Origin: Rhodospirillaceae bacterium
Lineage (GTDB): Bacteria; Pseudomonadota; Alphaproteobacteria; Rhodospirillales; JABHCV01
NCBI GenBank assembly: GCA_013204045.1
Contig: JABMOQ010000118.1
Coordinates: 1 to 47,680 of the forward strand
Reading direction: 5' to 3'
DNA length: 47,680 nt
The notes beneath the pieces are model-generated. The model saw only the letters and a program-made list of their open reading frames with translations. It was not told the origin of the DNA and ran no database searches. Below, in pieces: positions 3,819 through 35,458 of the stretch. Position numbers and translations under genes: made by a program. The first letter of the stretch is position 1. Every line of letters starts with the position of its first letter.

Positions 3819-4895
<1,077 letters not shown>

Positions 4896-11293: not shown

Positions 11294-12154
11294 ATGTTTG
11301 CCATCATCGGTTATATCCTTGTTATCGGCAGCGTCATCGGCGGTTATTTGGGGGTCGGCGGGCACCTGAATGTGCTTTGGCAACCTTTTGAATTCGTGAT
11401 CATTCTTGGCGCGGGGCTCGGCGCGTTTACTGCTGGCAATGCAAGTCTGATGAAACGCATGGGTGGCGCTTTCGCTACCTTTTTCAAAGGCCCAAAATAT
11501 AAACCCGAGGATTATATGGAGCTCCTCGGCGTTCTTTACGCCGTATTCAAACTTGCGAAAAGCAAAGGAGACCTGGCCCTTGAAGCGCATATCGAAACCC
11601 CGGAAGAAAGCTCCCTGTTCCAGAATTTCCCTACATTCTGCCAGGATCATCACGCGATGGAGTTTCTCTGCGATTATCTTCGAATGTTGACGCTTGGCAC
11701 TTCAAATGCCCACGAAGTTGCCGAAATTATAGATACCGAACTGGAACTACACCATGATGAGGATCATGCCGTTTCAGCCGCCATGCAAGGGCTCGCAGAC
11801 GCCTTGCCTGCTCTGGGTATTGTTGCCGCCGTTCTTGGTGTTATTCATACCATGGGTTCAATTACCGAGCCGCCGGAAGTTCTCGGTCACCTGATTGGCG
11901 GCGCCCTGGTTGGAACCTTTTTTGGCATTCTCGCATCATACGGTTTTGTGGCTCCTATTGCTCAGTCGATCGGTCAAAGCTTTGAATCAGATTCTCATTA
12001 CCTTAGCTGTGTCAAGGCGGGCATCATCGCGCATATGCAAGGATATGCGCCACAGGTGTCGATTGAATTTGCCCGCAAAACACTGGCAGGAAAAATGCGT
12101 CCGACCTTTATCCAGGTCGAAGAAATGATCGGCGAACTGCCGACCACAAGCTGA
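11294..12154 (+). CDS. motA: Flagellar motor stator protein MotA
   Basis: Inner-membrane stator subunit that couples ion flow to flagellar rotation, with MotB. It has 286 residues. The start MFAIIGYILVIGSVIGGYLGVGGHL is the first transmembrane helix, and a second follows at about 33-52. The large cytoplasmic loop spans about 60-165. Two more helices follow, in ALPALGIVAAVLGVIHTMGS and LIGGALVGTFFGILASYGFVAP. The charged loop that contacts FliG is the region around residues 80-130. It is of the proton-type E. coli class by overall appearance, not the PomA class, but ion choice cannot be proven from sequence. motB starts 9 bases after its stop. Confidence 0.96.
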   Translation: MFAIIGYILVIGSVIGGYLGVGGHLNVLWQPFEFVIILGAGLGAFTAGNASLMKRMGGAFATFFKGPKYKPEDYMELLGVLYAVFKLAKSKGDLALEAHIETPEESSLFQNFPTFCQDHHAMEFLCDYLRMLTLGTSNAHEVAEIIDTELELHHDEDHAVSAAMQGLADALPALGIVAAVLGVIHTMGSITEPPEVLGHLIGGALVGTFFGILASYGFVAPIAQSIGQSFESDSHYLSCVKAGIIAHMQGYAPQVSIEFARKTLAGKMRPTFIQVEEMIGELPTTS

Positions 12155-12163
12155 GTCTGACTG

Positions 12164-13561
12164 ATGGCAGACGTCAACCAGCCAATTATTCTTAAAAAGA
12201 TAAAAAAAACCGTAGGGGGCCATGGAGGTGGTGCCTGGAAAGTCGCTTATGCCGATTTTGTTACGGCGATGATGGCTTTTTTCCTTTTGCTTTGGTTGCT
12301 CAACTCTGTAACCCAGGATCAACTTGAAGGTATCTCTGATTATTTTGCACCGGCCTCAATATCGGCAACAACGAGTGGTGCCGGCGACGTGCTCAGCGGC
12401 AAAACGATCGGCGAAGAAGGGGTGATGGAAAAAGAAGCCTCCGTTCCCAGCGTCACGGTCGAGCTACCCCCACCCAAATCTGGTTCGACGACAACGGACG
12501 TAGAAGGCGATTCTGGTGCGACAACGGATCAAGAAACCGAGGAATTTCAAAAACAAAAAGTAATTGAAGAAGAGCAATTCCAGGAAGCCGAGAAGAAAAT
12601 TGAAGATGCGATTCAGGAAATTCCAGCTCTTCAGGAGTTGGCAAAAAGCCTGATGGTCGACAACACCCCTGAAGGGCTGCGCATACAACTTGTCGATCAG
12701 GATGGTCTGGCAATGTTTCCGAGTGGTAGCGCGGTTATGCATCCACATACCAGAAAACTGCTGGAACTGGTCACCAAGGCAATTCTGGATCTGCCACAGC
12801 TATTGTCCATTTCCGGGCATACGGATGCTGTGAAGTTCGCCAGCAAGCGGGCTTACGGTAACTGGGAGTTGTCGGCCGACCGCGCAAATAATGCGCGCCA
12901 CGAACTTGAAAAATTGAGTGTGCCTGAAGAACGGATTCAGCGTGTTGTCGGGCTTGCCGCCACAGATCCGCTGTTGCCGGAAGATCCGAATAATGCACGC
13001 AACAGACGCTTGTCGATCATCTTGCTACGAGGAACAAGCGTCACACCAAAACCTGATGAGGACCCGGCGAATAAGGCAGAAAACACGGCGCCAGATTCCA
13101 CAGGCTCTCCAGATGGAGAAACGGTTTTTGAGCCTGTCGGTGATGCCACAGAAAATAATCCTGCTCCTGAGCCCGAATCACCTGCACCTGAGCCAACGCA
13201 TGCGCCAGAGGTTCTGGAAGAAATGCCAGCCAATATCCCCGAGGCAGTAATGGAAATTACACCGATTGAGATTACGCCTGAATTATTGCCTGAAACGGAT
13301 GGGGGGCAAGGTGAAGGCGCCTCACAGGAATTGCTGATTCCACCTCTGCCGGAACTAGAACCAGAGCCGGAGCCGGAACCAGAGCCGGTCGTAGAGCCTG
13401 AGCCTGAACCACAACCCATACCCGAGCCACAACCCGAACCCGTTCCGGAAGTCCAGGTTGATCAGGGAATCATTCCGGATACGCAAGTTGAGATAACGCC
13501 GGTCGAGATCACGCCAATTGATATCTCGCCAATTGAAGTTGTCCCTGTGGAACCGCAGTAA
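12164..13561 (+). CDS. motB: Flagellar motor protein MotB with long acidic proline-rich tail
   Basis: Stator subunit that anchors to peptidoglycan. Residues 28-48 form the single membrane helix, with the ion-binding Asp31 in AYADFVTAMMAFF. Residues 50-165 are an unusually long charged linker, including a predicted coiled coil around 124-150. The OmpA-like peptidoglycan-binding domain spans about 172-290 (FPSGSAVMHPHTRKLL, SISGHTDAVKF, then RANNARHELEKL and NARNRRLSIIL). Residues 291-465 are an added periplasmic tail rich in Pro, Glu and Thr. It has an EP-repeat block at about 397-429 and two clusters of repeated I-T-P motifs at about 363-372 and 442-460. The whole protein is 465 residues, against roughly 250-350 for most MotB. 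The tail is the odd part: it is probably disordered and may reach or pack in the periplasm. Confidence 0.95.
   Translation: MADVNQPIILKKIKKTVGGHGGGAWKVAYADFVTAMMAFFLLLWLLNSVTQDQLEGISDYFAPASISATTSGAGDVLSGKTIGEEGVMEKEASVPSVTVELPPPKSGSTTTDVEGDSGATTDQETEEFQKQKVIEEEQFQEAEKKIEDAIQEIPALQELAKSLMVDNTPEGLRIQLVDQDGLAMFPSGSAVMHPHTRKLLELVTKAILDLPQLLSISGHTDAVKFASKRAYGNWELSADRANNARHELEKLSVPEERIQRVVGLAATDPLLPEDPNNARNRRLSIILLRGTSVTPKPDEDPANKAENTAPDSTGSPDGETVFEPVGDATENNPAPEPESPAPEPTHAPEVLEEMPANIPEAVMEITPIEITPELLPETDGGQGEGASQELLIPPLPELEPEPEPEPEPVVEPEPEPQPIPEPQPEPVPEVQVDQGIIPDTQVEITPVEITPIDISPIEVVPVEPQ
13352..13450 (+). repeat. EP-repeat coding tract in motB
   Basis: The codons for residues about 397-429 of MotB alternate Glu and Pro with a few Gln, Val and Ile interruptions. 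The DNA repeats units close to GAGCCG and GAACCA. Third-position variation shows the tract is not a freshly slipped microsatellite, but length variation between strains is likely. Confidence 0.8.
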
Positions 13562-13576
13562 TAGGAGGGGGAATTA

Positions 13577-14299
13577 ATGCGACACAAACCCCTGCCGGGT
13601 GCAAATTTCTTTTTTTCAACGGCGCCCCTACCCTGCCCATATTTTCCCGACAGGGTGGAGACTCGTGTAGTGACGGAACTGATCGGTCGCAATGCCGAAA
13701 GCCTTCATTATTCACTTACCCTTGCCGGGTTCAGGCGGTCCCACACAATAACCTATGCTCCGACCTGCCCGGAATGTGACGCGTGTAGATCGGTCAGGGT
13801 TTGTGTCAATGGTTTTGCCCCTTCCCGATCACAACGTCGGGTACAAAAACGCAACAACGAAATCACCGCCGAAATCACACCTGCCATTGCAAATGAGGAG
13901 CAGTACGCAATATTTTCGAGCTATCAAGCATCCCGGCATGGCGATGGTGATATGGCAAAAATGGAATACGGGGACTATCAGGCGTTAGTCGAGGAAACAG
14001 AAGTTGAAACAAAATTGGTGGAATTTCGCCGCGCAGATGGAACGTTGATAGCCTGTTGCCTTGTAGATCGAATGTCTGGGGGGCTTTCAGCCGTTTACAG
14101 CTACTATGATGTCGGTGTCGACCCTCGGCTCAGCATAGGTACCTATATAATCTTGTGGCTGATTGAGAGGGCTAAATCAGAAGGTCTTGATTATGTGTAT
14201 CTCGGTTTCTGGATCGAGAATTGCGTAAAAATGGATTATAAGTCCGGATTTCGGCCCTTACAGGTTTTTACACCGGATGGTTGGCGAGAGTTGCCCTAA
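13577..14299 (+). CDS. bpt: Aspartate/glutamate leucyltransferase (Bpt), N-end rule
   Basis: Transfers leucine from leucyl-tRNA to proteins with N-terminal Asp or Glu, marking them for ClpS/ClpAP. It is related to eukaryotic arginyltransferase ATE1. At 240 residues the length is typical. The N-terminal domain holds PCPYFPDRVETRVV, GFRRSHTITYAPTCPECDACRSVRV with the conserved cysteines, and FAPSRSQRRVQKRN. The C-terminal GNAT-like domain includes LSAVYSYYDVGVDPRLSIGTY and YVYLGFWIENCVKMDYKSGFRP. A textbook AGGAGG lies 8 bases before the ATG. It follows motB by 15 bases, which may give read-through from the stator operon, although no functional link is known. Confidence 0.95.
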   Translation: MRHKPLPGANFFFSTAPLPCPYFPDRVETRVVTELIGRNAESLHYSLTLAGFRRSHTITYAPTCPECDACRSVRVCVNGFAPSRSQRRVQKRNNEITAEITPAIANEEQYAIFSSYQASRHGDGDMAKMEYGDYQALVEETEVETKLVEFRRADGTLIACCLVDRMSGGLSAVYSYYDVGVDPRLSIGTYIILWLIERAKSEGLDYVYLGFWIENCVKMDYKSGFRPLQVFTPDGWRELP

Positions 14300-14399
14300 G
14301 GCAAAAGGAAATATACACTTAATATCTTGTGATTAACTTTAGCCATAATGAAGAAGTCACAAAAATAATAATACATCAGTTCTATCAGGGAGAATATCG

Positions 14400-15491
14400 A
14401 TGAAACGTCGTCAATTCCTAAAGAGCGCCGCCACCGGAATTTCCGGTGCTGCTGTCGCATCACTCGCCACACCCGCTATCGCGCAGGGCATGCGCGAATT
14501 AAAAATGGTGACCACATGGCCCAAGAATTTCCCGGGCCTTGGAACCGGCGCTCAAAGGCTTGCCGATTCAATTACCGCAGCTTCGGGGGGGAAACTATCT
14601 GTTAAATTGTATGCGGCTGGAGAACTGGTGCCGCCATTTGAAAGTTTCGATGCCGTTTCCAGCGGCACCGCTGATATGTATCACGGCGCCGAATATTACT
14701 GGCAGGGCAAGCATAAGGCTTTCAACTTTTTCACAGCCGTTCCCTACGGTTTCACTGCCAATGAAATTGACGCCTGGCTCAACTATGGAGGTGGTCAGGA
14801 ATTGTGGGATGAACTTTCAGGCGGGTTTAACCTGAAATGTTTTGCCGCTGGCAATACTGGCGTCCAGATGGGTGGCTGGTTCAATAAAGAGGTCAACAGC
14901 CTTGAAGATTACAAGGGCCTGAAGATCCGCATGCCCGGACTGGGCGGCGAAGTGCTGCGCCGGATAGGTGCCGCCGCCGTAACCCTGCCGGGTGGCGAAA
15001 TCTTCCCAGCCCTGCAATCGGGGGCTATCGATGCGACCGAATGGGTAGGGCCGTGGAATGATCTTGCCTTTGGTTTTTACAAAGTCACCAAATATTATTA
15101 CTGGCCTGGCTTCCATGAACCTGGCTCGACGTTGGCTTGCGGAATCAACAAGGGTGTTTGGGATGGCTTTGCAGCTGATGAAAAGGCCCTTGTTCAGGCT
15201 TGCTGCCATGCCGAAAACAATCGCATGTATTCTGAATACAATGCCAAAAACAGTGATGCCCTGAATACACTGATTAATAAACACGACGTACAATTACGCC
15301 AGATGCCAGATCCGGTGATGAACGCCATTGGTGAGGCTTCGGGTATCGTGGTTCGCGAAGTCGGCGAAGTAGATGCTCTTGGTAAAAAGATATTGGAAAG
15401 CTACCTTTCTTTCCGCACCCAGGCCCTTTCATGGTCAAAAATTTCTGACCAGGCATACTGGAATTCAAGATTACTGCCGTTCAAGTACTAG
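14400..15491 (+). CDS. TRAP transporter substrate-binding protein, Tat-exported
   Basis: Periplasmic solute-receptor of a tripartite ATP-independent transporter. It has 363 residues. The N-terminus has a twin-arginine signal (RRQFLK at residues 3-8, hydrophobic GISGAAVASLA, then TPAIAQ as the cleavage region). The mature part matches the DctP/TakP type: LKMVTTWPKNFPGLGTGAQRLAD, VSSGTADMYHGAEYYW, LKIRMPGLGGEVLRRIGA with the carboxylate-binding arginine, and GAIDATEWVGPWND. That resemblance to TakP suggests 2-oxo acids as substrates, which is inference. GGGAGA lies about 7 bases before the ATG. It is first in the operon and is followed by a strong terminator, which should raise its level over the membrane subunits. 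Confidence 0.94.
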   Translation: MKRRQFLKSAATGISGAAVASLATPAIAQGMRELKMVTTWPKNFPGLGTGAQRLADSITAASGGKLSVKLYAAGELVPPFESFDAVSSGTADMYHGAEYYWQGKHKAFNFFTAVPYGFTANEIDAWLNYGGGQELWDELSGGFNLKCFAAGNTGVQMGGWFNKEVNSLEDYKGLKIRMPGLGGEVLRRIGAAAVTLPGGEIFPALQSGAIDATEWVGPWNDLAFGFYKVTKYYYWPGFHEPGSTLACGINKGVWDGFAADEKALVQACCHAENNRMYSEYNAKNSDALNTLINKHDVQLRQMPDPVMNAIGEASGIVVREVGEVDALGKKILESYLSFRTQALSWSKISDQAYWNSRLLPFKY

Positions 15492-15512
15492 GATTGTTTT
15501 TCTTGCTATTCT

Positions 15513-15552
15513 AAAAAGACCCGCACCCTTTCGGGTGGGGGTCTTTTTTTTT
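15513..15552 (+). terminator. Rho-independent terminator inside the TRAP operon
   Basis: AAAAGACCC-GC-ACCC, loop TTTC, GGGT-GG-GGGTCTTTT and a run of T form a long hairpin with one G-G mismatch and a T tract. It lies 22 bases after the binding-protein stop and before the small membrane subunit. It probably acts as a partial terminator that sets the ratio of receptor to permease. Confidence 0.9.
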
Positions 15553-15576
15553 ACTTGATTATTCGGATGGCTCGCT

Positions 15577-16119
15577 TTGGGGTTTCTTAAAAAAACAGTT
15601 TCTGTTCTGGATATGGTCAACGAACGAATTGGCCGTTTTGTCGCATGGGCAGCTATCGCCATGGTGCTGATTCAATTCACTATTGTGGTTATGCGTTACA
15701 TTTTTGGTATCGGGTCAATCATGATGCAGGAATCCGTCATCTATTTGCATGGCATTCTTTTCATGGTCGGTGCCAGCTACACCCTGCTTCATGAAGGTCA
15801 TGTCCGGGTTGATATTTTTTATCGAGAGGCAACTCCCCGCACCAAAGCATTTGTAGATCTTTTTGGTTCTTTGTTCCTGCTGCTACCTGTCTGTATTCTT
15901 ATTTCCTGGTCATCATATCAGTATATCGTGAATTCATGGTCGGCCCTTGAGGGATCAAGAGAAACCAGTGGCATCCAAGCCGTTTTCCTATTGAAGTCGA
16001 TCATTTGGGTTTTTACGGGCCTGATGATTTTGCAGGGGTTATCCATGGCGGCAAGATCTTATCTGTTTCTTGCCGGTGATCCTCTCGAAAACTCACAAAA
16101 CAACAAGGGGCATATTTAA
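15577..16119 (+). CDS. TRAP transporter small permease subunit (DctQ type)
   Basis: Four-helix inner-membrane subunit of the TRAP system, 180 residues. Helices are at roughly 22-42 (FVAWAAIAMVLIQFTIVVM), 53-73, 92-115 and 133-155. Family signatures VVMRYIFGIGS and LLHEGHVRVDIFY are present. The start is uncertain: TTG 15577 gives the usual leader length, whereas ATG 15613 would start at MVNERIGR; neither has a convincing ribosome site. The terminator just upstream and this weak start together imply low expression relative to the binding protein. The large subunit starts 3 bases after its stop. Confidence 0.9.
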   Translation: MGFLKKTVSVLDMVNERIGRFVAWAAIAMVLIQFTIVVMRYIFGIGSIMMQESVIYLHGILFMVGASYTLLHEGHVRVDIFYREATPRTKAFVDLFGSLFLLLPVCILISWSSYQYIVNSWSALEGSRETSGIQAVFLLKSIIWVFTGLMILQGLSMAARSYLFLAGDPLENSQNNKGHI

Positions 16120-16122
16120 AAC

Positions 16123-17715
16123 ATGGGACTTAATGAAATCCTGTGCGTTCTGATGTTCGTTGTTGTCTGCTGCGTTTTGCTGGTTGGCTATCCTGTCGCT
16201 TTTACATTGGCCGGAACGGGTTTGTTTTTTGCGGGTATTGGTTGGTTTTTCGGCATATTCGATTTTTCTTTTTTTGGAGCATTACCTTCGCGGCTTTTCG
16301 GTAATGCCATGACCAACGAAATTCTTGTCGCCGTTCCATTGTTTGTTTTCATGGGAGTGATGCTGGAACGATCTCGAGTCGCCGAGGAACTGCTCGAAAG
16401 CATGGGTATGTTATTCGGAAAATTACGCGGGGGGTTGGGTATATCGGTGACAATTGTCGGGGCTTTGTTGGCCGCCTCGACCGGAATCGTCGGTGCTACG
16501 GTGGTGACGATGGGGCTTTTGAGCTTGCCGACCATGCTTAAGCGCGGCTATTCGCCGTCATTATCTTGTGGCACTATTTGTGCATCGGGTACGCTGGGTC
16601 AAATCATTCCGCCATCAATCGTATTGGTGCTGCTTGGTGACCAGATTTCTAACGCGTACATCGATGCCCAGCGGGAAATTGGCAATTGGTCACCGGACCC
16701 GGTATCTGTTGGTGATTTATTTGCTGGAGCCCTGCTACCGGGCTTGTCCCTTGTCGCCATGTATATTGGCTATCAAATTTTGATGGCGTGGTTAAAGCCG
16801 GAAACCTCACCGGCGATTCCGGAAGATGAAATTAACGTTGATGGTATCGGTTGGCGCATCGCCCATGCCTTAATTCCGCCCATAGTGCTGATCGTATCTG
16901 TTCTTGGCTCAATCCTTGCCGGAGTTGCGACGCCGACAGAGGCGGCAGCCGTCGGAGCCATAGGGTCGCTAATGCTGGCCGGACTGCGGCTCGATGAAAA
17001 ACGCGGAAAGTCCATATTGATTGGGTTCCTGGCACTGATCGTCATGTTGATGATAGCCAACAGCATGGACTTAAGGGTTTCGCGAAATGAAATTCCAGCC
17101 ACCGATATGATTGCCATTATTGCGGCCGGAATATGTTCCGCCCTGCTCTGCATCAGCTTGCTAACCAGCCTTTACAGAGTTTACACAACCTACGTTGATG
17201 GCTCTGAGACTCCTGTGCTGGTAGATGTCATGCGTTCGACCATGCAAATTTCGGCCATGGTATTTGTTATCCTGATCGGAGCATCCGTCTTTTCACTGGT
17301 ATTCAGGGGCTTCGGCGGCGATGACTTCGTCCACCATATTCTAAGCGATATTCCGGGCGGCAAGTGGGGGGCCATATTCGCCGTCATGACGGTCATGTTT
17401 GTGCTCGGCTTCTTCCTGGATTTTATCGAAATTACCTTTGTCGTCGTACCGATCGTCGCTCCGGTGCTGCTTAAAATGGATATCAACCCGGTGTGGTTGG
17501 GTGTGATGATGGCGATGAATTTACAAACGTCATTCCTGACGCCACCGTTTGGTTTCGCGTTATTCTATTTGCGGGGTGTCGCGCCACCGGAAGTCACAAC
17601 CATGCATATATATCGTGGTGTCGCGCCGTTCGTCGTTATTCAGATATTGGGATTATTGCTTCTGGCCATGTATCCGTCGATCGCGACATGGCTGCCAACG
17701 GTGATATTCGGCTAA
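16123..17715 (+). CDS. TRAP transporter large permease subunit (DctM type)
   Basis: Main membrane component that drives substrate uptake with a sodium or proton gradient. At 530 residues it is longer than the usual 430 or so, as in the TakP-associated group, whose members carry extra central segments. Many hydrophobic helices are visible throughout. Key motifs are EILVAVPLFVFMGVMLERS, GIVGATVVTMGLLSLPTM, CGTICASGTLGQIIPPSI and the C-terminal NLQTSFLTPPFGFALFYLRG. It completes the order receptor, small subunit, large subunit. Its stop overlaps the stop of parC on the other strand by two bases. Confidence 0.94.
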   Translation: MGLNEILCVLMFVVVCCVLLVGYPVAFTLAGTGLFFAGIGWFFGIFDFSFFGALPSRLFGNAMTNEILVAVPLFVFMGVMLERSRVAEELLESMGMLFGKLRGGLGISVTIVGALLAASTGIVGATVVTMGLLSLPTMLKRGYSPSLSCGTICASGTLGQIIPPSIVLVLLGDQISNAYIDAQREIGNWSPDPVSVGDLFAGALLPGLSLVAMYIGYQILMAWLKPETSPAIPEDEINVDGIGWRIAHALIPPIVLIVSVLGSILAGVATPTEAAAVGAIGSLMLAGLRLDEKRGKSILIGFLALIVMLMIANSMDLRVSRNEIPATDMIAIIAAGICSALLCISLLTSLYRVYTTYVDGSETPVLVDVMRSTMQISAMVFVILIGASVFSLVFRGFGGDDFVHHILSDIPGGKWGAIFAVMTVMFVLGFFLDFIEITFVVVPIVAPVLLKMDINPVWLGVMMAMNLQTSFLTPPFGFALFYLRGVAPPEVTTMHIYRGVAPFVVIQILGLLLLAMYPSIATWLPTVIFG

Positions 17716-19958
17716 AAGGTGGTGAATTTTCCGGACGTCGGAAAGCCGCGTGGCACTTTCAGCCCGGCTTGTGATCGCTTGCCCACCCATTTCTTTATTT
17801 CCGGCTCGGTGCGGGTTCTCTCCCCACTTTGCCACGAAAGTCCATCCGCAAGCTTGAAGGTGCGGGCATCAACAAGCCCCCCCTTGGCGTGACGCTGCAA
17901 GATATTGCCACGCCCCCGGGACATTTCCGGTAATTCATTCAGGGGAAATACCAGGAGCTTGCGGTTCTTGCCAACGGCGGCCACATGGTCATCGTTTTCG
18001 CCGACAATAGAGGCTACGACCGCCTCCTCACCCGCACTTAGGTTCAGAACCTGTTTGCCATTCTTGGTTTGGGCGATGACGTCATTTTCAGCGACGATAA
18101 AACCGCGACCACCGTCTGAAGCAACCAGTAGCCTGCGGTCTGGCTGATGGATAAACATGGCGACAGGTTCATGTTCGTTGCCGAGGTCAATCATCAAACG
18201 CAGAGGCTCGCCATGGCCGCGCGCTCCCGGCAACTTGTCACATCCGATTGTGTAAAAGCGCCCGTTTGTCGCAAACACGACAAGTTTGTCTGTGGTTTGA
18301 GCGGTAACGACGAATCTGGCGGAATCGCCTTCCTTGTACTTCATGTCGCCAGCGCTTTCCACATGACCGCGCATGGCCCTGATCCAACCTTTTTCCGAAC
18401 ATATAACGGTAACAGGTTCGCGTTCGATCATTGCTTCCAAGGGAACTATAATTGCAGAAGGCGGTTTGCCGATAATTGTCCGGCGCTTGCCAAGGATTGA
18501 CTTGGCGCCAAATTCCTTATTTATCTCAGATAGTTCAGCGGCGATCGTTTTCCAGCGTTTATTTTTGTCCTTGAGAAGTGCCCGCAGCTCTTTTTTCTCA
18601 GCCTTCAGAACCGTGCTTTCCTTCTTGATTTCCATTTCTTCAAGCTTGCGTAACTGGCGCAAGCGCATATTAAGGATCGATTCAGCCTGCACCTCGGAAA
18701 GCTTAAAGGCTTTAATCAACTTTGGCTTTGGCTCGTCCTCGTTACGGATGATTTTGATTACTTTGTCGAGATTAAGGAAAGCGATCAGGTATCCACTCAG
18801 AATTTCAAGCCTGTGTTCTATTTTTTCCAGACTGAATTTGGAACGACGAACAAGAACTTCATGGCGATGATCAAGAAAGGCCTGCAACACCTCGCGCAAA
18901 TTCATCACACGCGGCACGCCGGTACCATCAAGAATATTCATGTTAAGGCCGAAACGGGTTTCCATGTCGGTTTGCCTAAACAGGTGTTCCATCAACATTT
19001 CGGCCTCGACCGTACGGTTTTTGGGTTCCAAGACAATCCGCAGTTCTTCTGCTGATTCATCACGGATATCGGCTAACATGGGTAGTTTTCTCACGTTCAT
19101 CAGTTCGGCGATCTTTTCGATCAGTCGGGATTTTTGAACCTGATACGGAATTTCGGTGACAACCACCTGATACTGGCCGTGGCTCAATTTCTCGACCTGC
19201 CATCGGGCCCTGAGGCGGAATCCGCCCCGCCCTGTCTTGTAAGCTTCGACAATGGCGCCTTTCGGTTCGACCAGTTCACCGCCCGTAGGAAAATCCGGTC
19301 CCGGGATCATTTCCACCAGCTTGCCGATGGTCGCCTTGGGAAATTTGATTAAATGAGCCAAGGCCGCACAAAGTTCGCCGATATTGTGCGGCGGTATGCT
19401 GGTCGCCATGCCGACGGCAATGCCCGCAGACCCGTTGGCTAGTAAATTAGGCACCCTAGCGGGCAGCACCACCGGTTCGGAATCCTCTCCATCATAGGTT
19501 TCCCTGAAATTGACGGTATCTTCGTTGATGCCTTCCAGCAGTGTCATGGCGAACGGTGTCAGGCGCGATTCTGTGTAGCGCATGGCGGCGGCATTATCGC
19601 CGTCGATATTACCAAAATTCCCCTGCCCATCGATCAACGGATATCGGACGGCAAAATCCTGTGCCAGTCGGACCAGGGTGTCATAAACGGCGACGTCGCC
19701 GTGGGGGTGGTACTTGCCGATGACATCGCCGACGACACGGGCGCATTTCTTATAGCCGGTTTTCGGATCCAGCTTTAGTTGAAGCATGGCGTAAAGCAGG
19801 CGCCGGTGCACAGGCTTAAGCCCATCGCGCACATCTGGGAGCGACCGCGACATGATTGTCGACAGGGCGTAGCTCAGGTAACGCTCGCTCAGCGCATCGG
19901 CCAAGCGGGTGTCACGAATTTCCCCTCCTGACTTCGGAAGTGGTGATTTTTTGCTCAT
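17712..19958 (-). CDS. parC: DNA topoisomerase IV subunit A
   Basis: DNA-cleaving subunit of topoisomerase IV, which unlinks daughter chromosomes. I take the ATG at 19956-19958 (748 residues, [13 protein letters not shown]); an upstream ATG at 19973 and a longer reading to 20054 are less likely. The catalytic Tyr is in [11 protein letters not shown]. The winged-helix region [11 protein letters not shown] and KYHPHGD are present. In the quinolone-determining region the sequence is [11 protein letters not shown]: the position of the usual Ser is Val, while the Asp four residues on is kept. The C-terminal domain has repeated beta-pinwheel blades ([22 protein letters not shown]). It follows recO on the same strand after a gap of about 135 bases. 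The name parC rather than gyrA rests on length and on the recO neighbour. Confidence 0.93.
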
Positions 19959-30762: not shown

Positions 30763-31008
30763 TTAATCGTCCGTCGTCGTGTCGGTTTCCGGGTCGAACA
30801 ACCGGTGCAGGTGGACAATCACGTATTTGATGTCGGCTTCATCGACCCGCGCCTGGCTGGCGCCGCGCCAGGCTTCCATGGCCTTGGCGTTGCTCGGATA
30901 AATACCGACGATATCGATCTCGTCGCAATGGCTGAAATCGAGCCCCTGGGGATCATCCACACGGCCCCCGAAGACGAGGTGTAGCAAGGGTTTTTTGGTC
31001 ATATTCAT
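30763..31008 (-). CDS. DUF4170 family small protein
   Basis: Protein of 81 residues. The signature KPLLHLVFGGRVDDPQGLDF near the start, IDIVGIYPSNAKAMEAWRG in the middle and KYVIVHLHRLFDPE at the end fit DUF4170, a small alphaproteobacterial family of unknown function. It looks like a compact alpha/beta fold without cysteine clusters, signal or membrane segment. The GGAGAA stretch about 5 bases before its ATG is a good ribosome site. It is divergent from the MerR-cyclase gene, so the 256-base region between them holds two promoters. Confidence 0.9.
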   Translation of the reverse strand: MNMTKKPLLHLVFGGRVDDPQGLDFSHCDEIDIVGIYPSNAKAMEAWRGASQARVDEADIKYVIVHLHRLFDPETDTTTDD

Positions 31009-31113: not shown

Positions 31114-31161
31114 AGTCTAAATTGATTTTAAAAGTCTAAAAAACCTCTCCTAAGAGTCTAA
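31114..31161. repeat. Three AGTCTAA direct repeats upstream of the cyclase gene
   Basis: AGTCTAA occurs at 31114-31120, 31133-31139 and 31155-31161, start to start 19 and 22 bases apart, that is about two helical turns each. A partial fourth (GGTCTATT) lies at 31178-31185. All lie between the DUF4170 start and the -35 box of the cyclase promoter. Repeats in helical phase suggest cooperative binding of a regulator. The binding protein is unknown. Confidence 0.6.
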
Positions 31162-31191: not shown

Positions 31192-31220
31192 TTGACAGTT
31201 AGTATTCTGCTAACTAAAGT
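31192..31220 (+). promoter_or_regulatory. Probable promoter with operator-like palindrome before the MerR-cyclase
   Basis: TTGACA at 31192-31197 is a perfect -35 box. TAAAGT at 31215-31220, 17 bases on, is a fair -10. GTTAG-N7-CTAAC (31198-31214) fills the spacer, the position used by MerR-family operators. A wider inverted repeat ACAGTTA (31195-31201) / TAACTGT (31231-31237) surrounds it. The GTG start is at 31265, with AGGTG about 8 bases upstream. MerR-family promoters often have 19-20 base spacers; this one is nearer 17. Confidence 0.6.
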
Positions 31221-31264
31221 GTCCAAACATTAACTGTTTATTTAGACATTTAGTGAGGTGACGG

Positions 31265-32794
31265 GTGCTAACCAGCCGACAACTGATGCAGCGGGCCGGG
31301 ATTTCCCGGGCAACACTGAATAATTACATCCAGATGGGCATCCTGCCCAAACCTGTGTTGGCACCGGGACAGGGCCGCACCCGCCGGATCGGGCATTTTC
31401 TGCCGGAAAGCCTGGAGGCTATCGCAAACGTCAACCAACTTAAAAAACGGGGCCACACCATGACTGAAATCGCTTCAATGATGGCAAACAATGACACCGC
31501 CGAAAGCACGGGTAACGTAACCAAGCTGGATGAACGACGGCGCGGCACTGAACGGCGCAATGATGGCTTTCAGGGCGTCCCGCAAGGTCTCGGCGGCGGC
31601 CTGCGCCTGACCGTCGATCAGATGACCTCGCCGGCTTACATGGTCAATACCCGCTTCGAGCTGGAATGGTCCAACCTTGAGGCCGGTGAAACCATCCCGG
31701 TGCTGGCCTCGGGCATCAGCGGCGACATTGCCGAGCGTAATATTTTTGCGCTTTTTTACCGGGATGAAATCTTCCGGGCCGCTGCAAGCCGGGAAGATAT
31801 TTTAAAATTTCACCTGTCCCTGGCCAAAAACAGGATGTCGCGTACCGCCCTGCTGACCGCCGATGCAGACCTTGGCGATGAGGACTTGAACGAATTGGGC
31901 CGGCTTTACGACGAAACCGAGGCCGCCCCCCTGGGCCAGGTCCTGCATATCCAGGTCAACCTGGCACCCCGGGGCGAGGATGAGCGCTGGCATGACATTT
32001 TTACCTCGACCTTCCGTGAGGGATTCTTTTATGCCTACGTGCCGGTTCAGGATGAAAACGATTCCCTGATGCAGCTTTTGGCGCGTCGCGACATCGTCAT
32101 TGGCGATTTGTTGAAACGCCGTCGCCCCTACCTGACGCCGGTCGCCGTCATCGTCGCCGATTTGCAGGACTCGGTAAAAATATGCGCCGAGCTGCCGCCG
32201 GAAGAATACTTCGAGCTGATCAACGATGTATGGGGCGCCATGGCGCCGAAAATCCGCAAGTACTACGCCACCCATGGCAAGCACGTGGGCGACGGCATGG
32301 TTTATTATTTTTTCCCACAGCCGGACAGCAATTACGCCATGAACGCACTGATGTGCGCCGAGGAAATGAAAGACGCCATGCGGGAGATCAGCCGGGCCTG
32401 GAAAATGCGCAAGAACTGGGCCAATGAGCTGTTGCTCAACATCGGCCTGCATGAAGGCCAGGAATGGTTCGGCTCATTCCAGACGCCGACCCATGTCGAG
32501 GTGACTGTGCTCGGTGATACCATCAACATGGCGGCGCGGCTCAGCGATTTCGCCCGTGGCGGTTCCGTGTGGATCAGCAAATCCATGTTCGGGCAGTTGA
32601 GTTCGAAAGAACGCGACCGGGTCAGCTACGGGGTGCGGCGCAAGGCTGAAGACGGCTCGGATATCCTGGTGCCGGCGACTTATTCCCGCATCTCCAACCT
32701 GCTTGATCTGGAAGATCACCGGAACGTCAAATTCCGCGACATCGCCGCCCTGGCGGTGACCGAGGTGATCGGGGTCGAGGGGGCTGGGGAGTGA
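31265..32794 (+). CDS. MerR-type HTH / sensor-like domain / class III nucleotide cyclase fusion
   Basis: Protein of 509 residues with three regions. Residues 1-75 are a MerR-type winged helix (LTSRQLMQRAGISRATLNNYIQMGILPKP) followed by its helical extension. Residues about 85-110 are a charged linker. Residues about 113-280 look like a sensor: the stretch SPAYMVNTRFELEWSNLEAG and later ERNIFALFYRDEIFR resembles the PAS-like ligand domain of MmyB regulators, but that is only pattern similarity. Residues about 290-460 are a class III adenylyl/guanylyl cyclase. The metal-binding Asp299 (VIVADLQDS) and Asp343 (HVGDGMVYYF) are in place, as are Asn421 and Arg425 in TVLGDTINMAARL. The cyclase therefore looks active. 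Whether the product is cAMP or cGMP cannot be told. Start GTG 31265 has AGGTG upstream. It is alone on its strand. Confidence 0.88.
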   Translation: MLTSRQLMQRAGISRATLNNYIQMGILPKPVLAPGQGRTRRIGHFLPESLEAIANVNQLKKRGHTMTEIASMMANNDTAESTGNVTKLDERRRGTERRNDGFQGVPQGLGGGLRLTVDQMTSPAYMVNTRFELEWSNLEAGETIPVLASGISGDIAERNIFALFYRDEIFRAAASREDILKFHLSLAKNRMSRTALLTADADLGDEDLNELGRLYDETEAAPLGQVLHIQVNLAPRGEDERWHDIFTSTFREGFFYAYVPVQDENDSLMQLLARRDIVIGDLLKRRRPYLTPVAVIVADLQDSVKICAELPPEEYFELINDVWGAMAPKIRKYYATHGKHVGDGMVYYFFPQPDSNYAMNALMCAEEMKDAMREISRAWKMRKNWANELLLNIGLHEGQEWFGSFQTPTHVEVTVLGDTINMAARLSDFARGGSVWISKSMFGQLSSKERDRVSYGVRRKAEDGSDILVPATYSRISNLLDLEDHRNVKFRDIAALAVTEVIGVEGAGE

Positions 32795-32872: not shown

Positions 32873-34699
32873 TCAATTCCTCAGATTTTCAACAAGTTTC
32901 TCAAGTTCCCCCCTGATATTATCAATAACCCTGGTCCAATCGTTGCGTTCTTGTTGCCGGAATAAACGCAATGCGGGATACCAGGGGCTGCCCTGCCCTT
33001 CGACCATCCAGCGCCAGTCGGGGATGTCAGGCAGCAGGGTCCAGGTTGGAATGCCGAGCGCGCCTGCCAGGTGTACGGTGCTGTTATCAATTGAAATCAC
33101 CAGATCAAGGGCGGCAATCTGAGCCGCAAACCCATCCATGTCCTGTAGCGGATCTATATTGCCGTCCTGAAAAATATCCAGGCCGGTATTGTTCTTAAAA
33201 TTAGCCAAATCCTTCACTACGTCACCGTACTGCAGGTTGATGAACTGGCAATCAGCATTGGCAAGAAGCGACCGCAATTGATCCAGCGACACGCTTCGCT
33301 TCATGCCGGCTTTGGCATTGCCACTACGCCAGGACACGCCGACCAGAAACTTGCCGGGCCATCGGTGCGCGTAATCATTTCGCATACGCGACTGGTTTTC
33401 CTTGTTCGGGTAAATGAATTCCGGCCGTTTGGGGAACGCGTCAATATGGGTGCGAAAATGCGCGCCCATGTCACCGGCCAGGAACTGGACGTCAAACCCA
33501 CCCCTTATTGATTCATCGGCTGGCGAACTCGGGTGATCGAGAAACGAAATTTCGGGGAATGACCTTTCAAACAAAGGCAACAGGCGTTTGTCGCATTGAA
33601 CAACGATGGCGCTGGAAAATTTGGCTAAATCCGGCAGCATGCTGGCGAACATGATCTCGTCACCGATCCCTTGCTCCATCCGGATCAATATTTTTTTCCC
33701 CGCCAGTTTCTCCCCGGTCCAGAAGGGTGCGGTATAAATATTTTTGCGGTGACCATTGGTGAAATCTTTAACCTGCCGCCGCCAGGCATAATTTTTCCAG
33801 CCGTCCGGGAAGTCCCCCATGGCCAATTGAAGCATGCCAAGGTTGTTATGGGCTTCGGCATAATCGGGATTAATGATAAGGGCCGCGTGGTAGCTGGCCA
33901 GGGCCGCGTCCCATCGCCCCAGCTCTTTCAGCGCATTGCCAAGATTGCCATGGGCCTCTGCCAAACCCGGGTTGATGGCAAGGGCGCGGCGATGGCTGGC
34001 GATGGCATCTTCCAGGCGGCCTGCCTCTTTCAACGTTTTACCAAGATTGCTGTGGGCCTCGGCGTAATCGGGATTGATCGCCAGCGCCCGTAAATGGCTG
34101 GCGATGGCGTCCTCCAGGTGGTCCTGATCGTGCAGGGCCAGCCCCAGGTTGGTGTGGGCGCCGGCCATATCAGGTGCCAGCGCCAGCCCCTTGCGGTAGC
34201 TGGCGATGGCATCATCCAGTCGGCCCAAGTCCTTCAGGGCATTGCCAAGATTGACATGGGTTTCGGCATTGTTCGGGTTCAGGGCCAACGCCTTCCGGTA
34301 GCTGGCCGCAGCCCCGTCCATATCGCCCGCATCGACAAGAGCGGCGCCCAGGTTGGCATGGATTTCCGCATCGCCCGGAGAGATCGCGAGGGCCTTGCCG
34401 TAACTGGCGGCGGCATCCGAGGCGCGTCCCTGGGCCAGCAACGCATTGCCCAGGTTGCTGTGATAGGCGGCGACAGCAGGGTTGAGCCCGATGGCCGTTC
34501 CGATCAACGTCACGGCAGTTTCATGATCGCCCCCCTGATGGGCAATAATGCCCAAAAGGTGGCTGGCATCGGCGTGGTTGGGCTGGGCCGCCAAAACTTG
34601 TTCGTAGGCGGCTTTGGCATCGGCCAGCTGTCCGGCTTGATGAGCCCGCAGTCCGGCTTGCAAAACAGAGTGAAGATCAGCGTTTATGGGTTCGTTCAT
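32873..34699 (-). CDS. TPR-repeat protein with glycosyltransferase-like C-terminal domain
   Basis: Protein of 608 residues. Residues about 8-300 are eight to nine tetratricopeptide repeats with the consensus AEAHxNLGNALKxLGRxDxAIASYxxALAINPDY; the repeats are so regular that the DNA shows 102-base periodicity. The C-terminal half (about 310-608) has EQGIGDEIMFASMLPDLAKFS and then IDNSTVHLAGALGIPTWTLLP. This fits the GT-B-like domain that follows TPRs in many alphaproteobacterial proteins, similar to heptosyltransferases. It probably adds sugars to a surface polymer or protein. It lies 15 bases after a methyltransferase gene on the same strand, which supports a role in surface-glycan modification. 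Substrate unknown. Confidence 0.88.
   Translation of the reverse strand: MNEPINADLHSVLQAGLRAHQAGQLADAKAAYEQVLAAQPNHADASHLLGIIAHQGGDHETAVTLIGTAIGLNPAVAAYHSNLGNALLAQGRASDAAASYGKALAISPGDAEIHANLGAALVDAGDMDGAAASYRKALALNPNNAETHVNLGNALKDLGRLDDAIASYRKGLALAPDMAGAHTNLGLALHDQDHLEDAIASHLRALAINPDYAEAHSNLGKTLKEAGRLEDAIASHRRALAINPGLAEAHGNLGNALKELGRWDAALASYHAALIINPDYAEAHNNLGMLQLAMGDFPDGWKNYAWRRQVKDFTNGHRKNIYTAPFWTGEKLAGKKILIRMEQGIGDEIMFASMLPDLAKFSSAIVVQCDKRLLPLFERSFPEISFLDHPSSPADESIRGGFDVQFLAGDMGAHFRTHIDAFPKRPEFIYPNKENQSRMRNDYAHRWPGKFLVGVSWRSGNAKAGMKRSVSLDQLRSLLANADCQFINLQYGDVVKDLANFKNNTGLDIFQDGNIDPLQDMDGFAAQIAALDLVISIDNSTVHLAGALGIPTWTLLPDIPDWRWMVEGQGSPWYPALRLFRQQERNDWTRVIDNIRGELEKLVENLRN
33790..34690 (-). 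repeat. Tandem 102-base repeats encoding TPRs
   Basis: Imperfect tandem copies of about 102 bases (34 codons) make up the first half of the TPR-glycosyltransferase gene. The recurring protein unit contains NLGNALKELGR and the DNA is visibly similar from copy to copy. Such tracts can expand or contract by recombination and can be mis-assembled. Confidence 0.8.
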
Positions 34700-34714
34700 C
34701 CGATGGACACCCGA

Positions 34715-35353
34715 TCAGGGAACAACAAAAGGTTCTCCATCCAGCCAGCTTTGGGGACGCCAGACAGGGCCGGCGGAACTCTGCCGCCACCCGGCGGAGG
34801 TAATCATCAGCACGGACACTTGCGGGTACTCGATAGAGATACTGTCAACCATGCCCTTCCACCAATCGGCGCTACGAACCGTAACATGGGCGTTTTCACC
34901 GTTTGGCAACATGGCTGCCGCCGCGTAACAGGCCACGTTCAAAATAATCAGGTTTTCGGCGTAGGAAAACAGGTCCCGTAAAACTGTCGGTACATCGTTA
35001 ATGAAAATATGTTCCAGAACATCGAATGAAACCACGCAATCAACTTTCTGTCGTTCGTCCAGTTGTCTTCCGGGATCATATTTGTAGGCATTTTCAAGGG
35101 AAAAGTATTCGATTGCCGATTGCCCGGAATCATCAAACCCCTTGGCTTGCCAATCAGAACCGCCGCTTCCGTAATCCAGTACCGTGCGGACGGCAAATTT
35201 GGCCATTAATTCTTGCAATTGGGGCCTGTAGACGCGGAGTTCAAAATCGCTGAAAGCGACATCGACCTTTATTCCGTCTGTGCGATCGTACCCGTCCCGG
35301 ACCATTTGTTCGTACAAGGACACCAGTTGTTGACCCTTGGCGGATAATTCCAT
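34715..35353 (-). CDS. SAM-dependent methyltransferase (class I)
   Basis: Probable methyltransferase of 212 residues from ATG 35351-35353; the TTG 24 bases earlier is less likely. Motif I is TVLDYGSGGSDWQAKGF, and the post-II/IV region is VDCVVSFDVLEHIFINDVP, the form seen in methyltransferase domain 11/23 proteins. The motif I glycines are intact. The protein starts with a helical region and has no membrane segment. It is directly upstream of the TPR-glycosyltransferase gene (15 bases), so the pair may add sugar and methyl groups to the same surface structure, which is inference. Confidence 0.86.
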   Translation of the reverse strand: MELSAKGQQLVSLYEQMVRDGYDRTDGIKVDVAFSDFELRVYRPQLQELMAKFAVRTVLDYGSGGSDWQAKGFDDSGQSAIEYFSLENAYKYDPGRQLDERQKVDCVVSFDVLEHIFINDVPTVLRDLFSYAENLIILNVACYAAAAMLPNGENAHVTVRSADWWKGMVDSISIEYPQVSVLMITSAGWRQSSAGPVWRPQSWLDGEPFVVP

Positions 35354-35458
35354 GATTAGAAAACCTTTGTTTGCCAATTGGCCCGAAGGGCATGATAGGC
35401 CAAATTATCGGTAATTATTTAATGATTTCCTACCTTGTTATTGTTTCTTGAGGCGCCC

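Follow-up and report, generated by a model that had tools for sequence, protein, structure and literature searches.

The gene that occupies positions 31265 to 32794 of the window (the whole stretch of DNA that was analyzed, 47,680 nucleotides) encodes a protein that is probably a self-limiting second-messenger sensor. In our preferred reading, to which we assign a probability of roughly 0.55, the protein is a soluble, probably dimeric PAS-gated adenylyl cyclase whose helix-turn-helix (HTH) controls the dosage of its own gene by feedback. The gene and the parts of its product are as follows.

31265 to 32794, plus strand: gene for a MerR-type HTH / MmyB-like PAS / class III nucleotide cyclase protein, 509 aa, GTG start
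31265 to 31507, plus strand: MerR-superfamily winged HTH, residues 1-81 (Pfam, alignment, and model)
31508 to 31597, plus strand: linker, residues 82-111, predicted to be disordered (pLDDT < 50) and poorly conserved
31598 to 32050, plus strand: putative MmyB/MltR-type PAS-like domain, residues 112-262 (profile matches of relatives and fold)
32060 to 32122, plus strand: putative signaling helix LLARRDIVIGDLLKRRR, residues about 266-286, highly conserved and running into the cyclase
32123 to 32791, plus strand: class III cyclase, residues 287-509, with metal-binding Asp299/Asp343, substrate-type Lys339/Thr414, and transition-state Asn421/Arg425

A ribosome-binding-like GAGG lies 6 nt 5' of the GTG start. 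The whole protein was modeled with AlphaFold2 (mean pLDDT 88), and the model places a winged HTH, a disordered linker, a PAS-like domain, a helix (266-284), and a cyclase fold in that order. Both the HTH and the PAS-like fold, for which the first-pass annotation had suggested structure prediction as a check, are present in the AlphaFold models. A protein search that covered 60 genomes (the organism's own and 59 relatives) returned full-length relatives with 47-72% identity in several of them, and a scan of ∼85,000 species genomes yielded candidates that included 196 relatives. Of these 196, the 80 best were kept, and 72 of the 80 are full-length from the HTH through the C-terminus. The alignment used below consists of 73 full-length sequences drawn from alpha-, beta-, and gammaproteobacteria. 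Since the three-domain layout is kept at full length in many genomes, it is neither a chance arrangement nor an assembly fusion, and the single ORF that the first-pass annotation had described as joining a MerR HTH, a sensor-like region, and a class III cyclase is real on the combined evidence of the ORF, Pfam, and the 73 aligned orthologs. Hosts of the family include Rhodospirillales and other alphaproteobacteria, Gallionellaceae, Methylophilaceae, Nitrosomonadales, Burkholderiales, Rhodocyclaceae, and gammaproteobacteria, one of the latter labeled SAR86; cultured hosts include Roseospirillum parvum as well as Methylobacillus sp. MM3 and Novimethylophilus kurashikiensis, the last two of which carry operators. 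When 299 genomes were sampled evenly across the phylum, the family turned up in the organism's own genome and four others only, so the family is widespread yet sparse. No copy of the gene was found on the plasmids of PLSDB.

In the catalytic domain, Pfam Guanylate_cyc matches residues 292-447 (E 3e-10, above the curated cut-off), and the nearest folds of the whole model by Foldseek are Cya2, CyaB, and CyaC (E 1e-11 to 1e-13). D299, D343, N421, and R425, which had been read as intact in the window protein with the right numbering and identity, are identical in 73/73 aligned orthologs, as is K339; a loss of the metal-site residues in homologs, named at that stage as a possible objection, is not seen, with D299 and D343 kept in every copy. 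Two further residues not included in that account, K339 and T414, carry a substrate-type signature. They align with the Lys/Thr of the adenylyl cyclase CyaB (3r5g); the matching residues of the guanylyl cyclase Cya2 (2w01) are Glu and Gly. From this residue pattern (K339 in 73/73; T414 in the window), the predicted substrate type is adenylyl. Position 414 is T in 48 orthologs, A in 21, V in three, and S in one, which makes the substrate call less firm in the 25/73 that carry Ala, Val, or Ser. The cyclase of the window protein is likely to be catalytically active.

The middle region of the window protein has no Pfam match of its own. Among the 73 middle domains, 29 have a weak match (E <= 1, best 6e-5) to MLTR_LBD, the profile of the MmyB ligand domain, and when the middle domain was modeled alone (pLDDT 85) its only PDB fold match with E < 0.001 was 3pxp (E 8e-5, TM 0.52 by query length). 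This structure is that of the MmyB-like regulator MltR, which was crystallized with a fatty acid, myristic acid, and for which Pro110, Ala111, and Asn124 are listed as conserved (PMC3406030). By eye, and in the numbering of that paper, P123, A124, and N137 of the window protein are spaced like MltR P110, A111, and N124. The only PDB sequence match of the middle domain, FliG at E 0.1, was taken as chance. The earlier comparison to MmyB-type regulators thus holds in the form of a distant kinship, with the middle domain predicted to be a remote MmyB/PAS-like relative on the basis, for the window protein, of the fold and the relatives.

At the N-terminus, Pfam MerR_1 (PF13411) matches residues 3-74 (E 6e-6, 26.7 bits versus a curated cut-off of 21.6), and the same profile matches 72/73 family members at E <= 1. 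The AlphaFold2 model contains the expected elements, with helices at residues 4-11, 15-23, 48-61, and 66-81 and a wing formed by strands 31-34 and 41-45. Residues 14-21, SRATLNNY, are unchanged across the 73 orthologs except for one A16S; together with the Pfam score and the model, this bears out the description of the HTH as intact. The long MerR dimerization helix that would follow the HTH is absent from the model, in which residues 82-111 are disordered. By Pfam, neither an AAA ATPase nor a LuxR HTH was found in the cyclase protein or its family, and the Xre-type HTH of MmyB regulators is absent, the HTH here being MerR-type.

The evidence for what the HTH would bind comes from the DNA upstream of the orthologs. 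In a k-mer count over 300 bp upstream, ACTGTCTA occurred in 48/73 loci as compared to 0.3 expected, and motif fitting led to the palindrome TTRGAC(A/T)GTCYAA, present as whole palindromes or as half-sites. The half-sites number 176 in 18 kb of upstream DNA (250 bp each) versus 109 in 760 kb of flanks, or 9.7/kb versus 0.14/kb, which is 67 times denser upstream. They are present in 66/73 upstream regions; in the other seven HTH-bearing orthologs, the strict half-site is absent within 250 bp. In the window, the following elements were located.

31115 to 31120, plus strand: putative operator half-site GTCTAA (motif match)
31134 to 31139, plus strand: putative operator half-site GTCTAA (motif match)
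31156 to 31161, plus strand: putative operator half-site GTCTAA (motif match)
31192 to 31220, plus strand: sigma-70-like promoter TTGACA - 17 bp - TAAAGT, a match that alone is not beyond chance
31213 to 31254, no strand assigned: imperfect dyad ACTAAAgTGTCCAAA...TTTAGACAtTTAGT, an ortholog-conserved motif that spans the -10 and the start region, with dyad half-sites GTCCAA at 31221-31226 and TTAGAC at 31242-31247

The near-invariance of S14-Y21 is what would be expected if the DNA site is conserved, and it parallels the way in which the site itself is kept in three classes. Binding of the MerR-type HTH to its own promoter had been put forward from the window alone, and binding to the operator array there is strongly supported on comparative grounds. 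In one locus (L041), four half-sites are clustered around 4810-4885, >1 kb upstream of the cyclase and beyond the usual promoter array.

The probable sign of this regulation was read from promoter geometry. TTGAC(A/T/C) followed by a fair -10 was recognized in 31/73 upstream regions as compared to 1.9 in shuffles; the spacer is 16-18 bp in 27 of these 31 promoters, and a half-site overlaps the promoter in 29. Classical MerR activators work on promoters with 19-20 bp spacers, and this stretched spacing is not the pattern found here, either across the 31 promoters or in the window. A ligand-bound PAS domain could in principle have the HTH activate its own promoter, which would give positive feedback and a bistable cAMP level. 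MerR-type regulators are classically activators, and in many loci half-sites are also present on the 5' side of the -35 (the window has three); nevertheless, we regard such a self-activating switch as unlikely given the 16-18 bp spacers (17 bp in the window) and the sites that overlap the -35 and -10. The same geometry favors autorepression, and of the two signs we consider repression the likelier.

The own genome (2.68 Mb, 98.7% complete) was then searched by patterns. GTCTAA-N7-30-GTCTAA occurs twice, both times at the cyclase promoter. In 13 other ortholog-bearing genomes, this direct pair lies mainly at the ortholog's own promoter (3/4 in G002, 1/1 in G006, 1/1 in G038, and 2/3 in Novimethylophilus). 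A search of nine ortholog-bearing genomes for palindromes with <=1 mismatch gave three exact ones, 3/3 at the ortholog promoter, and five of the inexact ones were located there as well. No further operator arrays were found in the genomes searched with three pattern types, scans that consisted of exact pairs or palindromes and that scattered weaker targets would escape. It could be argued that the motif scan overlooked further targets and that the protein is a transcription factor of wider reach, its own gene being one target among several, and a few isolated palindromes elsewhere, along with two off-locus direct pairs (one in G002 and one in Novimethylophilus), would fit this view. We consider it very unlikely, as the own genome has no second locus with the exact pair, the exact palindromes in nine genomes are confined to the own promoter, and the off-locus pair in G002 adjoins a tRNA-synthetase-like ORF with no promoter logic. 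On inspection, the off-locus operator matches look like chance. The putative regulon that is visible to pattern scans is the cyclase gene itself. Because the operator lies almost only at its own promoter, the HTH looks like a self-regulator of cyclase dosage and not like a regulator of a gene set. The first-pass annotation had pictured a one-component switch; that picture is narrowed here to probable control of its own promoter, in place of a general role over a set of genes.

The operator follows the cyclase gene and not a neighbor, since the neighbors differ between classes. In alphaproteobacteria, the gene context is housekeeping synteny only (UDG, HAD phosphatase, SmpB, DapA, and lytic transglycosylase), and no neighbor common to all classes emerged that would point to a functional partner. 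A DUF4170 gene (30763-31008, minus strand) diverges from the cyclase gene, and in the lineage of the window the two could have the operator region in common; its counterpart is not conserved in the beta- and gammaproteobacteria. The operator as a site of this divergent gene was rejected as the principal reading, as the upstream neighbor differs in those classes and the operator stays. Between the cyclase and SmpB, the window carries a TPR/glycosyltransferase-like gene and a small ORF (34715-35377, methyltransferase-like by eye) at 32873-35377, which looks like a lineage-specific insertion because the cyclase adjoins SmpB in several other alphaproteobacteria. Three marine gammaproteobacteria (L105, L107, and L110) have two gene families in common, clusters 52 and 51, that flank the cyclase. 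The next gene downstream has a GGDEF-like domain by eye in several Gallionellaceae as well as in Methylobacillus (L063-L068, L072, and L085), and a link between cAMP and c-di-GMP through this gene is possible. Elsewhere in the window, positions 12001-18000 show a strong AT-skew swing between neighboring 2-kb blocks, from +0.15 to -0.22.

A natural comparison is offered by relatives that lack the HTH. Six loci (L032, L050, L054, L057, L061, and L108) encode PAS and cyclase with no HTH anywhere in the locus, and a seventh (L135) has a partial HTH only. A frameshift artefact was rejected as the cause, as tblastn with >=11 N-termini (at least that many queries) recovered no HTH elsewhere in the six loci and a partial one in L135. 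One locus with the HTH in another frame (L052) was left out of the HTH-less set, as were two contig breaks (G006 and L011/G016). The seven HTH-deficient relatives have one half-site in ∼6 kb of upstream DNA and zero pairs, as compared to half-sites in 66/73 HTH-bearing loci (Fisher p 4e-5, uncorrected for kinship). A quick protein tree implies no fewer than four separate losses of the HTH. Operator and HTH are concordant in 3-4 of the 4 independent pairs and the opposite was never seen; four pairs are too few for a sign test to become significant (p 0.125). L032 is a near relative of the window protein (75% identical) in which both HTH and operator are gone. These relatives keep an intact cyclase and PAS domain, which suggests that the cyclase is useful without DNA binding. 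They also bear on the view that the cyclase domain is mainly a nucleotide sensor, in which bound ATP or cAMP would set DNA binding and transcription would be the output. The covalent fusion of the cyclase to an HTH and the discussion in the literature of cyclases as sensors or moonlighting domains are in keeping with that view. It is nevertheless quite improbable in our estimate, not only because of the HTH-less relatives but also because the full set of six catalytic positions is retained (five in 73/73) and because no regulon of the HTH is visible outside its own gene.

The preferred reading, a PAS-gated adenylyl cyclase under its own feedback, would operate as follows. The catalytic class III domains would form a homodimer that converts ATP to cAMP. 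The MmyB-like PAS domain may take a small, perhaps lipid-like, ligand, and its signal would reach the cyclase via the conserved helix 266-286. The HTH of the same dimer would occupy the TTRGAC(A/T)GTCYAA array over its own sigma-70 promoter and lower transcription of its own gene, by which the DNA-binding half would set cyclase dosage through feedback. The cell-wide output would be cAMP, sensed by CRP/FNR-type receptors that are encoded elsewhere in the genome. Besides this cyclase, the own genome contains five class III cyclase matches, along with 12 cNMP-binding domains, the latter being possible receivers for cAMP or cGMP signaling. A more ambitious version, which we put forward tentatively and at well under even odds, is an allosteric coupling of DNA binding to cAMP synthesis within a single dimer, which would give a complete, self-contained feedback circuit. 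Parked on its own array, the protein would be silent and repressing; ligand would release it and turn on both catalysis and its own synthesis. If true, it would be a DNA-gated second-messenger enzyme with itself as its only genomic target. If the preferred reading is right, the cyclase both measures its own dosage and limits it, and so compact a circuit could also be of use for synthetic biology.

The first-pass annotation could name no described system of this exact layout, and our full-text searches of PMC papers under open licenses likewise found no paper on a MerR-cyclase. HTH-cyclase fusions of other build are already known, and what is new here is the operator arrays upstream of the MerR-cyclase genes. 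The catalytic fold and the metal, Lys/Thr, and Asn/Arg positions are shared with CyaB of P. aeruginosa and CyaC of Spirulina, neither of which has a DNA-binding domain. With the MerR family, the protein shares a winged HTH above the MerR_1 cut-off and putative operators at its own promoter; it differs in that the model has no long dimerization helix and the promoter spacing is normal and not stretched. The likeness to MltR (3pxp) lies in the fold of the middle domain, the P-A and W-N positions, and the combination of an HTH with a PAS-like ligand domain (PMC3406030); however, the HTH of MltR is of the Xre type, MltR lacks an enzyme domain, and the sequence similarity is near the detection limit. 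The closest known systems, with a class III cyclase and a DNA-binding HTH in one polypeptide, are Mycobacterium tuberculosis Rv0386, Rv1358, and Rv2488c, in which a class III cyclase homology domain is joined to an AAA ATPase and a LuxR-type HTH (PMC3938503, PMC3466318). The present protein instead carries its HTH, of the MerR type, at the N-terminus, has a PAS-like domain, and lacks an ATPase. What the HTH does in the mycobacterial cyclases was posed as an open question (PMC3466318), and in a survey from 2012 the function of the DNA-binding part of these fusions is still being asked about. For the MerR-cyclase family, in contrast to the Rv0386 type, a candidate operator can be named, and with a named operator, a named promoter, and relatives without HTH and operator, the role of the HTH becomes directly testable.
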